Assembly: GCA_903833215.1 (NCBI GenBank)
Contig: CAILEM010000042.1
Location: 1 to 44,069, forward strand
Direction of reading: 5' to 3'
Source of the DNA: an uncultured Armatimonadota bacterium
GTDB taxonomy: Bacteria; Armatimonadota; Fimbriimonadia; Fimbriimonadales; Fimbriimonadaceae
DNA: 44,069 nucleotides
A program made the position numbers and the translations under genes. Below, in pieces: positions 1-44,069 of the stretch (position 1 is its first letter; each line of letters begins with the position of its first letter). The notes beneath the pieces were generated by a model. The model worked only from the letters and a program-made list of their open reading frames with translations, searched no databases and was not told the origin of the DNA.

Positions 1-57
1 GACGTCGGTACGATCACCGCCGACTACGGTGGCTGCGGATATTCGTGGTTGAGGTGA
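1..57 (+). CDS. C-terminal end of an unidentified protein (partial)
   Basis: Frame 1 is open from the window edge to TGA at 55-57 and encodes 18 residues ending GTITADYGGCGYSWLR. The codons are rich in G/C at third positions, like coding DNA here. The GTITADYG stretch is encoded again near the right edge of the window (43901-43927 on the minus strand, and with one residue changed at 43998-44024 on the plus strand), so it belongs to a repeated sequence. Nothing can be said about function; the rest of the gene lies outside the window. Confidence 0.4.
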   Translation, partial: DVGTITADYGGCGYSWLR

Positions 58-63
58 CATCCA

Positions 64-747
64 TCAACCTGGAAACCACTGCAAGATAAGTTTTGTGACT
101 TCGTCATGCCCTTTCCGGTTGGGGTGATTGACTTGGGCCATGTACGGATCCATCGGCTTGCCTGCGGTCAGTAGCTCACAGAAGCGAGCGTAGGAATCCA
201 CGAGGCCGACTTGCTCGTCCGAGGCGATCTGGCGAATTTGGGCAGCCTGTTTGCTTAGTGGATCGGAAGCATCAAGCATCTTCGCCGATAGGTCTGGCGT
301 CGGAGTGAAGAGGAGAACCTTGATGCCTTCGGCTTTAGCTGCCTTCACCATGGAAACCCATGCCGCCTTCGATTGATCGAGTGGTACACCCCGGTCATTC
401 AGCCCATAATCGATGCACAACAGGTCCGGGTGAAGGGGCAAGACGTCATGTTTGAAACGCTTCTCACCTGCCACCGAGTTCTCGCCCCCGATCGCGGTGA
501 CGATCACATTGATGACGGCAAACGGGAATCGGTCTTTCAATCCCACATGTGTCAGATGCGGATAGGCGTTGAAGGTGTCCACATGCGGTGTCGCCGCATA
601 CCCCGCCGGCACGCTGTGCCCGTGAAACACGATGTTCACCGCCCGATTGGTCGGCCACTGCTTCTGCATTTCAGTCACAAGCGGCTTAAGGTAAGTCGCA
701 GGGTCAGCGATGGCGAGAGATAGAGAAAGTGCGAGGGCGGTCAGCAT
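64..747 (-). CDS. Secreted SGNH/GDSL-type hydrolase
   Basis: The 227-residue protein has a short hydrophobic leader (MLTALALSLSLAIA), so it is probably exported. The SGNH blocks are visible: block I is FHGHSVPAG, with the Gly-His-Ser form of GDS and serine as nucleophile; block II has the glycine of AIGGEN; block III is YGLNDRG (GxND); block V ends in NHPNRKGH, giving the catalytic histidine. Members are esterases or lipases that act on acyl or acetyl esters, often on polysaccharides; the substrate here cannot be read from sequence. The length is normal for a single-domain member. It stands alone, convergent with the gene fragment at 1-57. The family call is firm, the substrate unknown. Confidence 0.85.
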   Translation of the reverse strand: MLTALALSLSLAIADPATYLKPLVTEMQKQWPTNRAVNIVFHGHSVPAGYAATPHVDTFNAYPHLTHVGLKDRFPFAVINVIVTAIGGENSVAGEKRFKHDVLPLHPDLLCIDYGLNDRGVPLDQSKAAWVSMVKAAKAEGIKVLLFTPTPDLSAKMLDASDPLSKQAAQIRQIASDEQVGLVDSYARFCELLTAGKPMDPYMAQVNHPNRKGHDEVTKLILQWFPG

Positions 748-1112: not shown

Positions 1113-1430
1113 TCGGCTGTCACTGAGGTTCTTGATCCAAAGCGGGAATCCCTTGAGGAGCTCTGCCGTAACTATGATGTTCAGCAGTTGAGCCTCTTCG
1201 GGTCGGCCGTCCGTCCGGACTTCGATTTTCAAAACAGTGATCTGGACTTTCTCGTTGTTTTAGGCGAACCGCGCCAAGGCATGAGGCTCGTAACTCAGTT
1301 CTTTGGATTCCTAGACGAACTAGAAAAGCTCTTCGGGCGCCACATTGACCTTTTGGAAGAATCCGCGATCGAGAATAACCACCTTCGTCGAAGCGCCCTT
1401 TCCTCAGCGGTGACCATTTATGCCGCGTGA
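1110..1430 (+). CDS. MntA-like minimal nucleotidyltransferase antitoxin
   Basis: This 106-residue protein belongs to the pol-beta fold MNT family. The active-site signature is LFGSAVRPDFDFQNSDLDF: GS, then the SDLD pair of metal-binding aspartates. A third acidic residue lies in RHIDLLE. In type VII toxin-antitoxin pairs, MntA silences a HEPN ribonuclease (HepT) by adding AMP to it. A HepT reading frame does begin inside the last codons of this gene (ATG at 1420), which is the standard MntA-HepT arrangement, but it is broken. The start at 1110 is chosen because the conserved domain begins soon after it and a -10 box sits just upstream; an earlier in-frame ATG at 966 would add 48 residues unlike the family. 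Confidence 0.8.
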   Translation: MSAVTEVLDPKRESLEELCRNYDVQQLSLFGSAVRPDFDFQNSDLDFLVVLGEPRQGMRLVTQFFGFLDELEKLFGRHIDLLEESAIENNHLRRSALSSAVTIYAA

Positions 1431-1616: not shown

Positions 1617-2966
1617 GTGAAGTGCAGTGGAAAGCGTATGCACACATTGACCAACATCGACCGGTCCCAATGGGATATCAGTAGCCCCCTCCATAACAAG
1701 CTGACCGAGTGCGATCGGCCAATCCATGCTTGGTACAGGTTTGTCTTAAGTTTTCCACCGCATCTAGTCCGCACGTATCTTTCGAAATTCGGAATTTCGG
1801 CGGGGGACACGGTTCTTGACCCATTTTGTGGCACTGGAACGACCATCGTGGAGTGCAAGAAATTTGGCATTAGTGCAGTTGGCTTCGAGGCCAACCCAAT
1901 GGCTGCCTTAGCAAGCAGAGTTAAATCAAATTGGTCAATCTGGCCCTCTGAGTTGCAGAGAGTTGCTCGTTGGGCTGCCCAAAAGGCCCAAGACGAAATT
2001 GATGAAGTATTGGACAGGACTCAGCAAACAGTTTTGTCTGGTTCACGTGAGCAACTTACGATATATGGTTGGAGAACACTTGACGTCGATGCTCACAAAC
2101 TGATCCTAACGGACTCCATTAGTCCCAGGCCGTTGCACCGAGCGCTAGTCTTGCACCGTTGGATTTCTGCAGCACCCTCAGAACTTCTCGAACCACTGCA
2201 GCTAGCATTGGCTTGGACGCTAGTCGTCCACGCAGGGAATATTCGATTTGGACCAGAAGTGGGAATTACAAAGCCGAAGGAGGATTGTGATGTCGTTGGT
2301 CTTTGGCTACAGCAATGTGAACGAATGGCATCAGATTTGGAGGTCTTTTCGGATCGTCAAAATATCCCGACGCAGTTAATACAGGCCGACTCCCGGGATG
2401 TATCTCAACTACCGGATAGATCAATTTCGGCAGTATTCACTTCTCCGCCTTATCCAAACGAGAAGGACTACACGCGAACAACACGTCTGGAATCTGTCGT
2501 CCTTGGTCTCATCAAGAACAAGAAAGATCTACGCGCGCTTAAGGAAGGTTTGCTCCGCTCGAACACGAGAAATGTTTATGTGGCAGATCGAGATGATCAA
2601 TTTGTTGCCGATATTCCGGAGATCCAGCGGATCGCAGCTGAAATTGAGGCAAAGCGCATTTTTATGGGTAAGGACTCTGGATTTGAAAAACTCTACCATC
2701 GGGTAACCCGATTGTATTTTGGTGGCATGGCACGACATCTTGAGAGCCTTAAACCAAAGCTTGTGCCTGGAGCCATGCTGGGATATGTCGTTGGCGACCA
2801 GGCATCTTATCTCCAAATAATGATTCGTACTGGACAGCTTCTCGCGGAGATCGCGGACCGCCAAGGGTACGAAGTTGTTGGAATCGACTTGTTTCGGACA
2901 AGGATTGCCACCGCGACTAGGCAGCAACTTAGAGAAGAGGTAGTCTTGTTGCGCTGGCGCGGGTAA
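1617..2966 (+). CDS. DNA methyltransferase of a type II restriction-modification system
   Basis: The 449-residue protein has the S-adenosylmethionine-binding motif VLDPFCGTGTT at residues 66-76 and the catalytic motif TSPPYP at 275-280. SPPY is typical of amino-methyltransferases making N4-methylcytosine or N6-methyladenine. Motif I precedes motif IV, and the roughly 200 residues between them probably contain target recognition. The next gene, 3 bp downstream, encodes a PD-(D/E)xK protein, which makes this a restriction-modification pair. The start is uncertain: GTG at 1617, or the in-frame ATG at 1638. The region looks more A/T-rich than its neighbours, which suggests horizontal acquisition. 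The target sequence cannot be predicted by eye. Confidence 0.85.
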   Translation: MKCSGKRMHTLTNIDRSQWDISSPLHNKLTECDRPIHAWYRFVLSFPPHLVRTYLSKFGISAGDTVLDPFCGTGTTIVECKKFGISAVGFEANPMAALASRVKSNWSIWPSELQRVARWAAQKAQDEIDEVLDRTQQTVLSGSREQLTIYGWRTLDVDAHKLILTDSISPRPLHRALVLHRWISAAPSELLEPLQLALAWTLVVHAGNIRFGPEVGITKPKEDCDVVGLWLQQCERMASDLEVFSDRQNIPTQLIQADSRDVSQLPDRSISAVFTSPPYPNEKDYTRTTRLESVVLGLIKNKKDLRALKEGLLRSNTRNVYVADRDDQFVADIPEIQRIAAEIEAKRIFMGKDSGFEKLYHRVTRLYFGGMARHLESLKPKLVPGAMLGYVVGDQASYLQIMIRTGQLLAEIADRQGYEVVGIDLFRTRIATATRQQLREEVVLLRWRG

Positions 2967-26927: not shown

Positions 26928-29900
26928 CTACCGCTGCTCAGTTCGCCAGATACGGATCTTTCCATCGCCGCAGTCGGTGAGGATCGATTTGCCATCTGGA
27001 GTCATGATTGCGTCGAAGACGATGTCCTGATGACCACTTAATTTCATCAGTTCAAAACCATCTCGGGGATCACAGATGCGGGCAAAATTATCAGCAGATG
27101 CCGTGATGATTCGCTTCCCATCCGGTGACCATTGGGATGAAGAAACCCATGATCCGTGTTGAACTGCAAACACTTGGGTCCCCGAGTCAACGTCCCAGAC
27201 ACGCGCTGTGTTGTCGTACGAGTTGCTGACCAGGCGTTTGCTATCTGGCGAGAAATGCACACCCCAAACTCTTCCCCTATGCCCCTCCAGAATACGTTTA
27301 GTTGTGGAATCATCAACGGCGAGGAGAGTCACAAGGAATCCGTGTGATGAGCATGCTAGCCACCGGCCATCAGGGGAAAACTCAGCGTCTGAAAGCGCTC
27401 CTTTCTCCTGGTGAACAACCTTGCCGGTCAGACTCGCAAGATCCAGCAGCAAGAGTGAACCCGCTTTCGTCGCAAGCGCTGCCTTGTTGCTGTCAGGTGA
27501 GATTCCGATAGTTGTAATGACAAAGTTCGGAAGAATGACGGCGCTTGGTGTGGATGCAAGGCTTGGCATTTGTATCAAGCCGCCATCTTTCAACCCGAAC
27601 AACACTTGACCTCGGCTGGTGAGTGTCACGCAGGTGGGATGAAGTCCTGCGAGTTGCAGACTCCTCACAACCTTTCCGCTCATGGTATCCACGATGACAA
27701 CCGAGCCATTCGTGGTAACAAGCACCAACCACTTACTTTCTGCCGAGTACGCCATTGGATGCACCGCGACATTCGCACCGAGGTCATATCTTCCAAGCTG
27801 GCGCCCTGTTTGTGCATCAAAGAGAACGGATACCCCCCCGATGGCGCTTGTGACGCACGTTGACCCGTCTGGAGACATCTTCATCGCGGTGATTTTCCCG
27901 CAGTGTAGATCGATGGTCTCGGTGAAAGGTTGAGAGTCAACTCTCCACTCAAGGACGCCAGAATCAAGGGTCATCGCGATTAACTTTGTCTCATCCTCAT
28001 TGAGGTCGACTGTTGTAACATCCGCGGTGGCACCCATAAAGGTCCGCTCCAAGGAGCCATCAAGTGCATTCCAAAGCTTGGCAGTGCCATCAGAACTACC
28101 TGTAACGATTCGGGTGTTATCTCGAAACCAATGTGCATCCACGATTGGTCCCGACGTTCCTTTGAGTCGAGATGCTAGGGAGCCATCGACCGTCTTGAGT
28201 ACAGTCGCGTCGGGTGACACTTGCATCAAGACAATGAATTCGTCATTGGGGCTAAATACCGGTCGGGCCACTTGGGATAACTTTTGCCTCCATTGCCATC
28301 GCTTGGCTGCGATGTTATACATGTTGGTTTTGTTATCGATACTTGCAGCCACGACGAATCGCCCGTTGTGGCTGAAATAGCACCCAACCGGTGGAAATCC
28401 GGTTTCAATGTGAGTGGGGGTGCCTGTTGCGTGATCAATGAGGTCGAAGCCGTTCTGCTTGGGATCCCAACTCACCGAAACGCTGCCGTCTTCACTCATG
28501 TTGAAGTGTTGGCCATCAATCGCTAAGAATCGTTTATTGGCAGCATCAATCCGATTACGTAAATTTGACTTTCCCGAGGTTGCTCGAAGCCATTCGATGG
28601 CGACTCCCGAGTTCAATACTCCTATCTTCTCGTCGCCCTGAAAGACTTGCGGTCCAACGAGTGTAACGAGCTTTCCGCCTTCGTACCATGCACGAAACGC
28701 TTGATGCAGCTTCTTTGGATCTAAGTCGGGAGGGCGAATCACCTTTGCCTCACCAAATCGAGTCGACCAGAAGCGCCATTCCCACCCCCGGTCTGGGGCG
28801 TTCGTTTGGCTTTTAACGAGTTCAAAGGCCTTGATAAAGTTAGCGTCTTCCACACGCTCGGATGCCAAGGCAATGGAGGCTTGATACGCGATTCGACGGT
28901 TCTCAGTATTGAGTTGCCTTGCTCGGACCAGAGCTTGATCGCGCTGTCCCGTGAGAATGAGGAGGTAGCTGACAATCGCTATCAGTAGAGACACTGCCAG
29001 GATGGCTACTCGTCCAATTCTCCAGGCTGACTGGATTGCCGCCGAACGTTGCCTTTGTTCTTCAAGTATGGGGAGGTTATTTCGGCACCATGCTTCATCG
29101 AAAGCCTTCTCATAGATTCGATTTCGAATCCGTAAGGAACGTCCTTGTTCCGTCACGACTCCTGAGAGGAGGAGTGTGTCGATAATGGCTGGATCATGGT
29201 TCGTCGTCACGACGTTGCCACGCAGTAATAAGCGATAGAGCTCAAGGACTCTACTCCGAGCCTCGTCGGGTGACGACTCGAATCCCTTAACCTCAAGCAG
29301 TCTGCGCTCGGCATCGCTGATGTTGGTGTCGTTCTGTCTCGCATCGGGATCAAGCAGAATTCGCTTCACAACTCCATCCACGTCCCAGGGATGTTTTGTG
29401 ACTGGGTCCATAGCGCATGCCGCGGCCAATACTTGAGTTAGGTAGGGATGCCCATTTGTCCACCAATAGATCCGACTCAAGATATCAACGCCGCTCCGGC
29501 CCGGAGCTTCCAAGCGTTGGATATATGGCTTGAGATCCTCAAGACTGAAATCAGACAGGTCGACGCGTCTGCCGATATTGAATGGCGTGACATCTTGATT
29601 TCGAATCAACTGGCTTGGAGTCGCAACCCCGGCTAGACAAAATGTCAGGCGGCGGAGATTTGGAGAAGTGGATCGCCTGTTGTAGGTTCCGCGAATTCCC
29701 GCAAAGAACTCATCCGTTGGAAAGGTCAAGGACATCAAGAAGTCAACTTCATCGATGAAGATGACGACTGGAGACTCGATTTCCTCAAGAACGACAGCCT
29801 CAATGCATCGAAACCAGCGGATCATTGGCCCCTCTGCCAAATGGGACTTCCAATAGGCAAAGAGCTTCTCGGTAAGCCCTAAGTCCTGTCCGATGGAGTG

Positions 29901-30173
29901 CAGTAATCCGGCGTACCATTGCTCGCAGTTGACATTTGAACCGATGCGCTGAAGGTCCAGGTTCAGGGTAGTCACTCCATTGACTTTCAGCCTTTCCAGA
30001 GTACGCACGATTAGGGAAGATTTGCCCTTCTGGCGTGAATCGAGAACATAGCAGAGTTCACCGGCAAGCAAAAGCTGCCCCAACAAGCGGTCAGCATCTC
30101 GCTCCAAGTAGCTTGGATCGTCCGGTCTCAATGTTCCGCCGACGGCGAAGTAGGGGGTCTGCTCAGAGCGCAT
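26928..30173 (-). CDS. AAA-like ATPase (AAA_35 type) with transmembrane segment and WD40 repeats
   Basis: From ATG 30173 this is a 1081-residue protein. Its N-terminal 300 residues match AAA_35-like P-loop domains: YFAVGGTLRPDDPSYLERDAD at the start, a P-loop LDSRQKGKSSLI, Walker B VVIFIDEVDFL and an arginine-rich sensor area (RRLTFCLAGVATPSQLI). A helical linker leads to one membrane helix (VAILAVSLLIAIVSYLLIL), a coiled segment, and about ten WD40-like blades to the C-terminus (SSDGTAKLWNA, SYDNTARVWDV, CGDGKIRIW). STAND-like ATPases with WD40 sensors act in signalling or defence. No effector domain is fused or adjacent. A longer in-frame TTG start at 30227 would run through the GTGAC repeats, so the ATG is preferred. 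Confidence 0.85.
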   Translation of the reverse strand: MRSEQTPYFAVGGTLRPDDPSYLERDADRLLGQLLLAGELCYVLDSRQKGKSSLIVRTLERLKVNGVTTLNLDLQRIGSNVNCEQWYAGLLHSIGQDLGLTEKLFAYWKSHLAEGPMIRWFRCIEAVVLEEIESPVVIFIDEVDFLMSLTFPTDEFFAGIRGTYNRRSTSPNLRRLTFCLAGVATPSQLIRNQDVTPFNIGRRVDLSDFSLEDLKPYIQRLEAPGRSGVDILSRIYWWTNGHPYLTQVLAAACAMDPVTKHPWDVDGVVKRILLDPDARQNDTNISDAERRLLEVKGFESSPDEARSRVLELYRLLLRGNVVTTNHDPAIIDTLLLSGVVTEQGRSLRIRNRIYEKAFDEAWCRNNLPILEEQRQRSAAIQSAWRIGRVAILAVSLLIAIVSYLLILTGQRDQALVRARQLNTENRRIAYQASIALASERVEDANFIKAFELVKSQTNAPDRGWEWRFWSTRFGEAKVIRPPDLDPKKLHQAFRAWYEGGKLVTLVGPQVFQGDEKIGVLNSGVAIEWLRATSGKSNLRNRIDAANKRFLAIDGQHFNMSEDGSVSVSWDPKQNGFDLIDHATGTPTHIETGFPPVGCYFSHNGRFVVAASIDNKTNMYNIAAKRWQWRQKLSQVARPVFSPNDEFIVLMQVSPDATVLKTVDGSLASRLKGTSGPIVDAHWFRDNTRIVTGSSDGTAKLWNALDGSLERTFMGATADVTTVDLNEDETKLIAMTLDSGVLEWRVDSQPFTETIDLHCGKITAMKMSPDGSTCVTSAIGGVSVLFDAQTGRQLGRYDLGANVAVHPMAYSAESKWLVLVTTNGSVVIVDTMSGKVVRSLQLAGLHPTCVTLTSRGQVLFGLKDGGLIQMPSLASTPSAVILPNFVITTIGISPDSNKAALATKAGSLLLLDLASLTGKVVHQEKGALSDAEFSPDGRWLACSSHGFLVTLLAVDDSTTKRILEGHRGRVWGVHFSPDSKRLVSNSYDNTARVWDVDSGTQVFAVQHGSWVSSSQWSPDGKRIITASADNFARICDPRDGFELMKLSGHQDIVFDAIMTPDGKSILTDCGDGKIRIWRTEQR

Positions 30174-30180
30174 CTTTTCT

Positions 30181-30255
30181 GTCACTTCGATACTGGCCTT
30201 TGGTGAGTGACGGAATTGTGACGCCAAGCGGCCCAGTCCGTCACAGTTTGGTCAC
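30181..30255. promoter_or_regulatory. Cluster of GTGAC half-sites upstream of AAA-WD40 gene
   Basis: Two 17-bp arms (30207-30223 and 30239-30255) are inverted copies matching at 14 of 17 bases. Each arm contains two GTGAC units 11 bp apart. A fifth GTCAC lies at 30181-30185. One helical turn between units suggests cooperative binding of a regulator; none is encoded next door. Confidence 0.5.
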
Positions 30256-39347: not shown

Positions 39348-41756
39348 CTAACCTCCGTGCCCCTTTTGCTGATTCTTTCCACCGCCGTTGCTTCGCTGGG
39401 CGGGCGGTCGCGATTGTTGTGGTCTGGGCGCCGAACGTTGCTGTGCTGGGCGTGCTTGCGCCCTTTGCTGGGGCTGCCGCGCTGGCTGGTTACGACGTTG
39501 CACAGGTTGACGAGACTGTTGCTGCCTTGGTGCCGATCGCTGCTGCGTCGGTCGAGATTGGGTCCTTTGTTGCGCCTGCCTGGCCGGTTGCTGGCGTGCG
39601 CCCCCATTGTTTCGTGCGTTTGTTTGACGTGGGGAACGCTGCCGTGGTGCAGCAGTCTGGGCCCGTGTCTTTACCGGTGCCGTTCGATTACCGTTACCGA
39701 CGTTCGAACTTGATGACTTTCTCGGTTGGCTCTGACGTGCCGTGGGAGATTTTTGGTTCGCCGTCCGAGGTTGGCTTTGTCGGCGATTTTGGGCAGATTG
39801 TCGATTCGCCGTGTTGCCTAGTGACTGTTTGGATTTGGTTGCAACCTGATTTGGTCTTGTCCGCTGAGAATTGACCCGATTCCCAGCAATCTGCTGCGAC
39901 TTGCTGATCGCTCCAGGTTGTGTCGTCCGAAGTCCTTTCCCAATATTGGCCGGCTGGCGGCCGCCAGGGTTTCGGGTGCTTCCAGCCGGCATTCTCATAC
40001 CGGATTTCAAATTGCTCGGGCGACCACCTGTATTCCTCGTATTTCCGAGAGGAGTTCTATTACGTGGGTTGATCGACATTGGCCTACCACCGGGGTTCAT
40101 TTGGCTTTGCCCGGTACCTGATCGTAGCTGCTGTCCCCTATTCTGAATAGGACCACGTGTTACTGTCGCTTGTCGATTTGACGAAGCGAACGACTGTCGC
40201 ATGGTTCCGCTACGGGTCGCGATGACGTTGGGAACGCCTCGCCGAACGACGGACCGCTGCAACATGCTTTGAGTCGGCCCAGCCCCCTTAGCAAAGGTTC
40301 GGCTGTGCGTAAAGGACGATGCGTTTGGACGAATTCCTGGAGGTCCAAACACCTGAGAGCGTGATGGTGCGCCACTGAAGCTGCGACCGTTACGAAATGC
40401 CATACCACGGGAATCTGCGCGAGGGGCTTGATATCCCCGTCCGCCAAGGAACGCGCTGTGCGTTGCCATGGTCATGCCCGCATAAACCGAGCCATTTTGA
40501 GGAATGAATCGACTATTTCGAACAAATACGCCGCCAGAGCTTTGACCGTAGCCGTTGTAAATGTTCGTGACACTGGTGCCACCGTAGATGTTGATTTGGC
40601 CGTTCGCATAGGAGTTATCCCATGGTCTGGCAACGCAATACGCAGAGCTCGAAGGGTAGTAGGCTGCGGCACCGCCGATGGAGAAGCTTAGTGACCAATC
40701 CCCGGATCGGAATCCAATACCAATCGATGCAGGGTAAACGACCTCGCTAGGTCCCAGGGGGGCCCAACCAATGGAAGATCCATTGTCGACATAGGCGACA
40801 ACGCCCGGTGACCAGTATTGGACCCTTGGCCCAGGAGACCATGCCCAACCATAGCTCGCATGGAGCCACGTTCCGTAGTGATAAGGTGCGTATCCCCAAT
40901 CCTCGTCACCCACCCACGTCCAACCCCAAGGGCTGACCCACACCCAGCGTCCGTTGCGATACGGTCGCCAGTTAGATTCGTGAACTCGAGGTGCCCACAC
41001 GTAGCCGTGTCGGGGGTCGTTGTGCCACGTACCGTAGTTGTCGAGGTTTCCCGAAACCATACCGATGTTGTCCGGTACGTGCTGGTTATGGTGTGCGAAA
41101 ACTAAGTTGCGACTATCGTTAAATCGGTCCCACTGATCGGGGTCCGGAACGCTCGCAAGCGTGTAGGGAGCGGTCTGATCTCGTACCTGGATACGCTCTC
41201 TCGGGTGAATCGTCGTTCGTCCTTGTCGACCCGATAACTCCGCAGTTCCGCCAGTGCAGGAAACCTCGAGCGATGCACCAACGCCAAGCCGGATTTCAGC
41301 GGGGCCACTGGCTTTCACAGAAGACAATGGAGTGTCGATCTGATATTCCGACTGCTTGATCCTGAGGTGGAAAGTCGCGAGACCTTCGTTGAGCTTAATC
41401 TCGGTAAATTCGCCCTGGTCATCGCTGAACATGGTTTGCAGAATGGCGACGGCCCCTCCGCCGAGTCTCATGGTGCTTCCATCATCAAACTGCAATTCTG
41501 CCCGACTGCTGTTCTTAACCCAAATCTGAGCGCCCTGCCTGAAAGGCAAATTCATACTTGCGCTGGACCACTGGGTCGAATCGTTCGGTCGCCATGTTAC
41601 GGGTCCGGTCATGTACGAAATTCGTGCGAGTCGCACTGGCCCTGTATTTGCGGTTGCTGCGTTCTCACCAATTGCATACCCGGTTTGGGCGGATGCAGTA
41701 TTGGTGCCGATGGCTGCTGTCAACAACCCAATCAATAAGACAGTTATGTCCCTCAT
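39348..41756 (-). CDS. Exported FecR-domain / DUF6600-like protein with Arg/Gln-rich tail
   Basis: About 802 residues, starting MRDITVLLIGLLTAAIGTNT, a signal peptide; AAGGA seven bases upstream sets this start, and the in-frame starts further up lack a site. A FecR-type domain follows (GAQIWVKNSSRAELQFDDGS, TFHLRIKQSEYQIDTPLSSV). Next is a Trp/Tyr-rich DUF6600-like region with repeats such as RNGRWVWVSPWGWTWVG and YAPYHYGTWLHASYGWAW. The last 300 residues are low complexity, rich in Arg, Gln, Ser, Pro and Asn, and end in two 34-residue tandem repeats and GGGKNQQKGHGG. Probably surface or cell-wall associated; the basic tail could bind polyanions. The 39195-39347 gap holds the MFS promoter only. 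Confidence 0.8.
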   Translation of the reverse strand: MRDITVLLIGLLTAAIGTNTASAQTGYAIGENAATANTGPVRLARISYMTGPVTWRPNDSTQWSSASMNLPFRQGAQIWVKNSSRAELQFDDGSTMRLGGGAVAILQTMFSDDQGEFTEIKLNEGLATFHLRIKQSEYQIDTPLSSVKASGPAEIRLGVGASLEVSCTGGTAELSGRQGRTTIHPRERIQVRDQTAPYTLASVPDPDQWDRFNDSRNLVFAHHNQHVPDNIGMVSGNLDNYGTWHNDPRHGYVWAPRVHESNWRPYRNGRWVWVSPWGWTWVGDEDWGYAPYHYGTWLHASYGWAWSPGPRVQYWSPGVVAYVDNGSSIGWAPLGPSEVVYPASIGIGFRSGDWSLSFSIGGAAAYYPSSSAYCVARPWDNSYANGQINIYGGTSVTNIYNGYGQSSGGVFVRNSRFIPQNGSVYAGMTMATHSAFLGGRGYQAPRADSRGMAFRNGRSFSGAPSRSQVFGPPGIRPNASSFTHSRTFAKGAGPTQSMLQRSVVRRGVPNVIATRSGTMRQSFASSNRQATVTRGPIQNRGQQLRSGTGQSQMNPGGRPMSINPRNRTPLGNTRNTGGRPSNLKSGMRMPAGSTRNPGGRQPANIGKGLRTTQPGAISKSQQIAGNRVNSQRTRPNQVATKSKQSLGNTANRQSAQNRRQSQPRTANQKSPTARQSQPRKSSSSNVGNGNRTAPVKTRAQTAAPRQRSPRQTNARNNGGARQQPARQAQQRTQSRPTQQRSAPRQQQSRQPVQRRNQPARQPQQRAQARPAQQRSAPRPQQSRPPAQRSNGGGKNQQKGHGG
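39387..39590 (-). repeat. Two 102-bp tandem repeats in the FecR-like gene
   Basis: Copy 1 (39489-39590) and copy 2 (39387-39488) each encode 34 residues; both begin QPARQ, contain QQRSAPR and SR.P.QR, and end in N. They differ at about seven positions, so the duplication is not very recent. Confidence 0.75.
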
Positions 41757-42006
41757 CTTCATTTCCTTATCATTGGGCTGGTCAAGCAGGACAGGTCGTC
41801 CTAAACATCGAGCCCGATGCCTACTGAGCCCCATAGTGGTTGGAATATAGGTTTGAGGACCAGTCGGCCTATAGATGTACGACTTTGCACTGACAGCGAA
41901 CGACTAGACGGTTGAATGCTGATGTTCAATAGAATTGAGTAAAACTTGAACATATCCAGGCCCTTCGTCGTCATTGGCTCCGCTGTCTTTTCAGCAATGG
42001 ACGAAC

Positions 42007-43155: not shown

Positions 43156-43773
43156 ATGAACGAAATTAGAGCAGAAGATTGGACAACGATAGGACGATTT
43201 CAAGAAGGCGATCAGGCGGCATTTGACGAACTGATGCGTAGGCATTGGCAACGGGCAAACAGCTATGCCTGTAAACTCACCAAGGACCGCGACGAAGCCG
43301 CAGATGTCGTCGCAGACACCTTCTACCGCGTCTTCCGCTCACTGAATCGATTTCGAGGCGAGAGTTCGTTCACGAGTTGGCTGTATCGAATCGAACTGAA
43401 CTGCTTCCTAGACATTCGGAAAAAGCTGCAGTCCAGAATGAGTTTGAGCCTGGACGAACTCCTCTGTGGACGCGATGGCCAAGCGACCCTTCAGGTCGTT
43501 GACGGTCAGGACAGTGCACAAGAGCGACTTGAGCGAAGGGAGAGAATCACCGCGATTGAGAAGGCAATGAAGAACCTTTCGCCCAATCAAAGCCAAGCAT
43601 TCATGATGTTCCATGGCGACGCCATGTGTTACGAGGATATCTCCAAAGCACTTTCAGTTCCGATCGGAACCGTGAAGAGTCGACTCAACCGAGCCCGTCT
43701 TCAGGTTCGCAAAACGATTCGCACACAAAGACTGCAGGCACTGGAAGCGACCAAGATCTACGCAACCTCCTGA
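43156..43773 (+). CDS. ECF-type RNA polymerase sigma factor
   Basis: The 205-residue protein has sigma region 2 (DELMRRHWQRANSYACKL, DVVADTFYRVFRSLNRFRG, FTSWLYRIELNCFLDIRKK) and region 4 (NLSPNQSQAFMMFHGDAM, SVPIGTVKSRLNRARLQVRK), with no region 1.1 or 3, so it is an ECF sigma factor. It would direct transcription of a stress or envelope regulon. No anti-sigma gene follows; a terminator comes 20 bp after the stop. The upstream small envelope proteins (BON, lmo0937) may be among its targets, but I see no shared promoter motif. GGGGAG lies upstream of the ATG. The 42968-43155 gap has a short GC hairpin (GCCGCT/AGCGGC) and no gene. Confidence 0.9.
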   Translation: MNEIRAEDWTTIGRFQEGDQAAFDELMRRHWQRANSYACKLTKDRDEAADVVADTFYRVFRSLNRFRGESSFTSWLYRIELNCFLDIRKKLQSRMSLSLDELLCGRDGQATLQVVDGQDSAQERLERRERITAIEKAMKNLSPNQSQAFMMFHGDAMCYEDISKALSVPIGTVKSRLNRARLQVRKTIRTQRLQALEATKIYATS

Positions 43774-43792
43774 ATCTATTCAGCACCACCCT

Positions 43793-43832
43793 GCCTCCTC
43801 ATCCGCCATCTGGCAAGATGAGGAGGCGTTTT
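43793..43832 (+). terminator. Terminator hairpin containing an AGGAGG site
   Basis: GCCTCCTCATC (43793-43803) and GATGAGGAGGC (43817-43827) form a perfect 11-bp stem, followed by GTTTT. It ends the sigma factor gene. Its right arm contains AGGAGG seven bases before the ATG at 43834. Confidence 0.75.
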
Positions 43833-43833
43833 C

Positions 43834-44058
43834 ATGTGCCATTTGGATGACTGGAACCACAATCTCTGCTGCACACCTCTCCCCCAATCACCAAGAGCCC
43901 CCGTAGTCGGCGGTGATCGTACCGACGCAGCAGCAGATGGCATTTATCGGCCCCGTGAATTGATGCACCAACACGAGGTGTGTTTCACCGTTCCGGACGA
44001 CGGTACGATCACCGTCGACTACGGGGTGGGATGTTGTTGGGGTGGCGCAAAAGCGTGA
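43834..44058 (+). CDS. Possible small Cys-rich protein overlapping repeated DNA (doubtful)
   Basis: A 74-residue frame preceded by AGGAGG at seven bases. It ends CFTVPDDGTITVDYGVGCCW, then GGAKA. The GTITVDYG part matches the partial gene at the window start (GTITADYG). However, the opposite strand over 43890-44069 is also open, reading toward CVGTITADYGGSW and a stop at 43888-43890, and the two frames cannot both be normal genes. Which strand is coding, or whether the DNA is a noncoding repeat, is undecided. Confidence 0.3.
   Translation: MCHLDDWNHNLCCTPLPQSPRAPVVGGDRTDAAADGIYRPRELMHQHEVCFTVPDDGTITVDYGVGCCWGGAKA
43901..44024. repeat. Inverted pair of a 27-bp repeat also found at position 3-29
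   Basis: The sequence at 43901-43927 is the exact reverse complement of 3-29. The copy at 43998-44024 is in the same orientation as 3-29 and matches 25 of 27 bases. The shared core is GGTACGATCACC. The last two copies face each other across 70 bp. Confidence 0.7.
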
Positions 44059-44069
44059 CCCTGGATAGA

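Follow-up and report, generated by a model that had tools for sequence, protein, structure and literature searches.

The locus and its repeats

The stretch of DNA analysed here (the window, 44,069 bp) is the complete contig C42, hence it is the contig itself that begins and ends in copies of one short repeat, as a sequence-only reading of the window had remarked. At the left end, a single copy occupies 3..29 on the minus strand, where sequence and pattern place its GTAG foot; it lies downstream of a GDSL-lipase-like gene (64-747, minus strand; PF13472), at 34 bp from that gene's 3' end. At the right end, two inverted copies with GTAG outside occupy 43901..44024, 127 bp downstream of a gene for an ECF-type sigma factor (43156-43773; sigma-70 families). 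The left copy of this pair (43901..43927, plus strand) carries GTAG at 43903-43906 and, according to both its sequence and the copy profile described below, a G.A mismatch in the stem; in the right copy (43998..44024, minus strand) an A-T pair takes the place of that mismatch. The 70-bp spacer between them (43928..43997) starts with CAGCAGCA, an A-type tail, and ends with TCCGGA, a B-type tail. Following the sigma factor gene, at 43793-43827, we also noticed a hairpin (GCCTCCTCATC / GATGAGGAGGC) followed by GTTTTC that looks terminator-like by eye; it is absent from the output of our terminator scan, the loop limit of which is 8. Other genes on the minus strand of the window encode a DUF433 protein (773-1123; PF04255), a family linked to antitoxins, a 1099-aa protein (26928-30227) in which WD40 repeats accompany an AAA-like domain at the N-terminus (PF14516), and an 828-aa protein (39348-41834) that combines FecR and DUF6600 domains.

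The sequence-only reading had described the repeat as a 27-mer present at these three places, each copy encoding GTIT(A/V)DYG close to a stop codon, and had proposed either the conserved tail of a family of small Cys/Gly/Trp-rich proteins or a short mobile repeat. Its observations are accurate: the 27-mer CGTCGGTACGATCACCGCCGACTACGG matches at 27/27 positions at 3-29 (+), at 27/27 at 43901-43927 (reverse complement), and at 25/27 at 43998-44024 (+), GTIT(A/V)DYG is readable in every window copy with a stop soon after, and the two copies said to face each other at the right end form an inverted pair, i.e., a REPIN. A degenerate pattern of the 27-mer recovered exactly 3 sites in the window and 0 in 100 shuffles. 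We searched the whole assembly (6,222,879 bases in 168 contigs) and found the core 174 times at up to 3 mismatches, 93 forward and 81 reverse, 62/100 among the matches listed being exact with one free position aside; a reversed-letter control of the core pattern gave 0 matches genome-wide at the same limit. Viral contigs contained 0 exact matches to the 25-mer.

Anatomy of the repeat

Read on the strand opposite to the GTIT frame, the repeat is a GTAG-footed imperfect palindrome, that is, a REP. The copy profile comprises 143 copies within 5 mismatches of CCGTAGTCGGCGGTGATCGTACCGACG, drawn from 60 stretches around listed copies together with the window (~205 kb); these contain 99 of the first 100 listed places (the C32 place was left out), and the remaining 74 of the 174 copies were counted only where they fall inside them. 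The G, T, A, and G of the foot are retained in 139, 139, 137, and 140 of the 143 copies, respectively, and the variable positions inside the hairpin part are 7, 10, and 25. Six Watson-Crick pairs flanking one G.A mismatch make up the stem. Specifically, the facing positions 10 and 25 hold G.A in 103/143 copies, a Watson-Crick pair (C-G, A-T, T-A, or G-C) in 27/143, and another combination in 13/143. Hairpins of single REPs do not stand clearly above shuffles (z -0.61, -1.12, and -2.37), but the inverted pair in the window does: the DNA fold of 43896-44030 reaches -42.4 kcal/mol, with z -7.26 against shuffles.

Among the 110 copies without a REP within 100 bp upstream, 88 have a C eleven bases 5' of GTAG, and the base after that C is A in 45 and C in 32. 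This recalls the CT, CA, and engineered CC cleavage sites described for E. coli TnpA-REP (PMC8266576), making the C a candidate cut site, which we offer only as a lead.

Pairs, tails, and arrays

Copies are often paired head-to-head with GTAG outside, as REPINs, which typically measure ~125 bp in all. Neighbouring copies within 400 bp of each other gave 71 pairs, of which 39 are head-to-head, 27 head-tail, and 5 tail-to-tail, and 28 of the 74 clusters into which the copies fall are lone copies. The head-to-head spacers measure 65-78 bp in 23 pairs, 53-61 bp in 9, and 108-145 bp in 7. Directly behind the REP, the tail is A-like (CAGCAGCC), B-like (TCCGGA), or neither. Sorted by tail, the 39 head-to-head pairs include 28 A+B, no A+A, and 1 B+B, with a partner of neither class in the other 10. 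Among the head-tail pairs, 17 have gaps of 42-49 bp, and in 13 of these 17 an A tail follows an A tail. With A+B so frequent in head-to-head pairs and A-A in tandem pairs, the REPIN would seem to be directional, and its A end can be reiterated in steps of ~73 bp.

The REPINs of Pseudomonas fluorescens SBW25 have likewise been described as two inverted REPs around a spacer that is less conserved but steady in length, and tandem arrays at even spacing, as well as arrays in which two groups of REPs are mixed, also occur there (PMC3116915). However, the SBW25 REPIN is described in that source as symmetrical, whereas the two ends differ here, with tails A and B.

We noticed that the likeness of the window end (43868-44067) to REPIN sites on C83, C110, and C43 extends ~20-40 bp past the REPs on one or both sides, so that the unit being copied may reach beyond the REPIN. 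In a comparison of a 970-bp window end with same-genus genomes, which are too distant for this purpose, matches outside the present genome covered the gene part only, and neither an empty site nor excision or polymorphism of a REPIN came to light.

Genomic placement

Only 2 of the 143 profile copies lie inside called genes, though 69% of that DNA was called coding by a purpose-written codon-usage script. By cluster (n = 74), 22 lie at convergent, 20 at co-directional, and 7 at divergent junctions (i.e., 49 with both neighbours called), 1 lies within a called gene, and 24 have no called neighbour on one side. Of the 26 gene junctions in the window, 4 are convergent.

These properties can be set beside those reported for the GTAG superfamily of REPs (PMC3733652). 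The GTAG foot, the imperfect palindrome, and the many intergenic copies are shared, as are the head-to-head dimers, with spacers of 20-100 bp there, and the convergent or co-directional junctions. The head-tail pairs (27/71 here) are a difference from the repeats as that source describes them. Armatimonadota is not among the host groups that it names for GTAG repeats, namely Proteobacteria, Cyanobacteria, Chloroflexi, and the PVC group. The comparison with its families is one by description, and a figure in that source gives 24 family consensuses.

A cognate transposase gene

Seven Y1_Tnp matches were found in the genome. One of them, on contig C99, is an intact gene for a 169-aa HUH/Y1 transposase (L013:1342-1851, minus strand), which lies between REPs of the same family at 1284-1312 (-) and 1893-1919 (+). 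More copies follow on both sides, as a tandem array with one inverted copy on one side and in both orientations on the other. The protein passed the Y1_Tnp model (34.4 bits, cut-off 23) and scored 78.5 bits (E 4.5e-22) against the NCBIfam model for REP-associated tyrosine transposases, NF047646, which is below the cut-off of 80, a model threshold and not a biological feature. Its HLH at 74-76, Y133, NPVRAG at 137-142, and T31 can be read against the motifs reported for RAYTs, i.e., HUH, the catalytic tyrosine, NP(L/V)(R/K)xG, and an N-terminal threonine (PMC2817692). Its nearest named relatives are from Armatimonadota, which led us to drop a planctomycete origin, at first suggested by the look of the genes. 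Loci of two same-genus genomes agree, being contained whole in known Armatimonadota sequences: every one of the 3450 40-mers of L104 occurs in L077 (Fimbriimonas sp. MAG_BO249), as do all 3447 of L105 in L076 and all 3441 of L126 in L078 (Armatimonadetes Umea_bin-06016). The host is accordingly a Fimbriimonas-like bacterium of this phylum.

A sequence search of the PDB with this RAYT returned no chain at E 0.001. For its AlphaFold model, computed from nine aligned sequences with a mean pLDDT of 90.4, the best solved fold match is 4er8_A, in which the RAYT of E. coli holds a REP hairpin (Foldseek E 5.7e-9; VIA-align Z 15.8, rmsd 2.6 over 144 residues), followed by an IS608 transposase at Z 11.8. 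With E. coli RAYT/TnpA-REP (4er8; PMC8266576) the C99 RAYT has in common the HUH motif with a single tyrosine, the predicted fold, and an irregular REP stem, as in the bulged REP group described there, although the two proteins are only 19% identical.

Origin and spread of the repeat

We consider it very probable (roughly 0.9) that the repeat is a GTAG-type REP, that the unit which spreads is most likely the REPIN, and that this unit is non-autonomous and served in trans by the C99 RAYT. Our data establish what the copies look like, how many there are, that they lie between genes, how they pair, and that a cognate RAYT gene is linked to them, as well as the motifs and the predicted fold of this RAYT; binding, cleavage, and mobilisation of the REPs by the RAYT are what we infer by analogy. 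The suggestion of a short mobile repeat is supported as to the kind of element, REPs and REPINs accompanied by their cognate RAYT gene, and is presumptive about its movement.

The mechanism that we propose is modelled on E. coli TnpA-REP as described in PMC8266576. On single-stranded DNA, for instance at a replication fork, each REP would fold as a small mismatched hairpin, which the RAYT would recognise by its GTAG foot, mismatch, and loop. Using its HUH motif and Tyr133, the RAYT would then cut near the REP, at a nearby dinucleotide, and rejoin the strand, by which REPINs could reach new sites. Insertions between genes would be those that persist. Excision of REPINs has been seen in SBW25 (PMC3116915).

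GTAG REPs, REPINs, and RAYTs are already well described (PMC3733652, PMC3116915, PMC6006769), and the element is thus of a known kind, here in a little-studied bacterial group. Among the openly licensed papers listed (25 of 76), none dealt with Fimbriimonas or Armatimonadetes together with REPs, RAYTs, or REPINs, the full RAYT name combined with Armatimonad gave 0 papers, and the available text of the F. ginsengisoli genome paper mentions only 12 transposase genes. Our results point to a GTAG REP/REPIN/RAYT system in Armatimonadota, explain the repeat together with many contig breaks, and remove a false small-protein family.

Among other explanations, the one that survives best, although we think it rather improbable, is that the repeats are now immobile and retained mainly as host elements at gene ends, serving transcript termination, mRNA protection, or supercoiling, roles of a kind discussed for REPs in PMC3733652. 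The junction counts are in its favour, with 22 convergent clusters among the 49 that have both neighbours called, compared with 4/26 convergent junctions in the window. On the other hand, a scan of the window REPIN returned a single weak match to a terminator and nothing resembling a promoter, and the hairpin at 43793-43827, which is more like a terminator, already precedes it. The cognate RAYT gene is present and intact, and exact copies are numerous among the matches listed, both of which argue against immobile remnants. It should be noted that a role at gene ends is compatible with the mobile REPIN reading.

Much less credible is that we are looking at the terminal repeats of another type of element, be it a DDE-transposase MITE, an integron attC, or a CRISPR array. 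Inverted pairs do resemble terminal repeats, and the gaps of the 17 tandem pairs are regular. However, the spacers of these arrays are themselves repeated (in 13/17 both copies carry an identical A tail), unlike CRISPR spacers, the gene found flanked by the repeats encodes a RAYT-type transposase, and no Rfam family matched the window at 43700-44069.

We give even less credence to the coding tail that the sequence-only reading had put forward. The reading frame and nearby stop in each window copy agree with it, as does an in-frame upstream start codon in 85/128 copies. Nevertheless, mean entropy at codon positions 1, 2, and 3 is 0.18, 0.37, and 0.15 bits, highest at the second position with the third nearly invariant, and the GTIT frame is no more open than its neighbours, with a median stop-to-stop distance of 58 codons against 58 and 60 in the other frames of the same strand. 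The GTIT strand is more open overall than the opposite one (medians 27, 51, and 34), on which the REP's own TAG lies. Additionally, the resulting ORFs vary in length between 15 and 162 codons (median 50), and the copies face each other and share a common non-coding GTAG anatomy. Codon-position entropy and frame openness thus both speak against a protein family.

Lastly, that the repeat is an assembly artefact at contig ends and absent elsewhere is hardly conceivable with 174 copies genome-wide. In its favour, 20/100 among the matches listed are found no more than 300 bp from a contig end (at 13 different ends; 1.6 expected), but the other 80/100 lie further inside contigs. The repeats cause the contig breaks and not the reverse, and the window likely begins and ends in the repeat because contigs often end in these repeats.

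Sister transposases and related REP families

In a 15-row tree, the C99 RAYT and a second RAYT of the same genome, on contig C109, are sisters (support 98/96; 76% identical), and the nearest RAYT outside the genome, that of G012, shares 65% identity with each of them. Stem and loop set the C109 REP apart from the C99 REP, with which it shares foot and tails: among 25 copies examined, the continuation is TCCGG in 12 and CAGCAGC in 4. In the stretches chosen for the C99 REP, 17 of 18 C109-type copies have a C99-type copy no more than 90 bp away, a fraction biased by that choice; at the 3-mismatch limit 14 of the 18 remain, and 13 of these are that close, which amounts to at least 13 of the 46 C109-type copies in the genome.

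The C99/C109 pair reads as a RAYT duplication followed by a split of REP specificity, judging from the sequences. We tentatively suggest, at somewhat under even odds, that the sister RAYTs split their target specificity within the lineage, whereby the foot, the two tails, and a spacing of ~46 bp were kept, the stem-loop core changed, and mixed arrays arose, and that the REPIN has a polarity, its A and B ends being distinct. Alternatively, a close relative may have contributed one of the two RAYTs by transfer. The presence in one genome of sister RAYTs whose REPs are related without being alike represents a natural experiment on the co-divergence of a domesticated HUH transposase and its hairpin targets. 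If the suggested split is true, it has been caught at a stage where few residues and bases would need swapping to map it.

How far each REP type is confined to its genome varies. Besides its 174 copies here, the C99 REP has one 3-mismatch match in each of 2/40 relatives. The other types were likewise counted at up to 3 mismatches, in the present genome (G000) and in G012, G019, G007, G023, and G010; six REP types were searched in all, leaving out the REPs of C59 in G000 and C14 in G019. Across these six genomes, the C109 REP occurs 46 times in G000 and 7 times in G010, and the G010 REP 22 times in G010 only. The G012 REP occurs 41 times in G012 and once in G000, a single match that we regard as noise because its reversed control itself gave 2 matches, 1 in G007 and 1 in G023. 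The G019-C118 REP has hardly spread, with 4 copies in G019 only, 3 of them beside the gene. Thus, 4 of the 6 types (C99, G012, G019-C118, and G010) are private or nearly private. Speaking against a simple rule of one REP per RAYT genome are the C109 REP in G010 and the G019-C7 REP, which is found in five genomes (20 copies in G000, 11 in G012, 11 in G019, 10 in G007, 8 in G010, and 0 in G023).

The G012 RAYT goes with a perfect palindrome, GTAG CCGCTGCC TCCGT GGCAGCG, so that one close clade includes both mismatched and perfect REPs. A scripted scan beside many weaker RAYT-like matches (mostly <=30% identity) found no repeated GTAG element, the automatic hairpin score of that scan being low for several REPs. 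Within the present genome, the further RAYT-like genes L014 (on C59) and L015 (on C109) are each flanked by their own GTAG palindrome family. Stronger Y1_Tnp matches (75-83 bits) are L009 (on C25), L010 (on C122), and L012 (on C50), which have other palindromic repeats alongside. The L010 protein scores above the cut-off of the NCBI model for IS200/IS605 transposases, yet its repeats form REP-like clusters.
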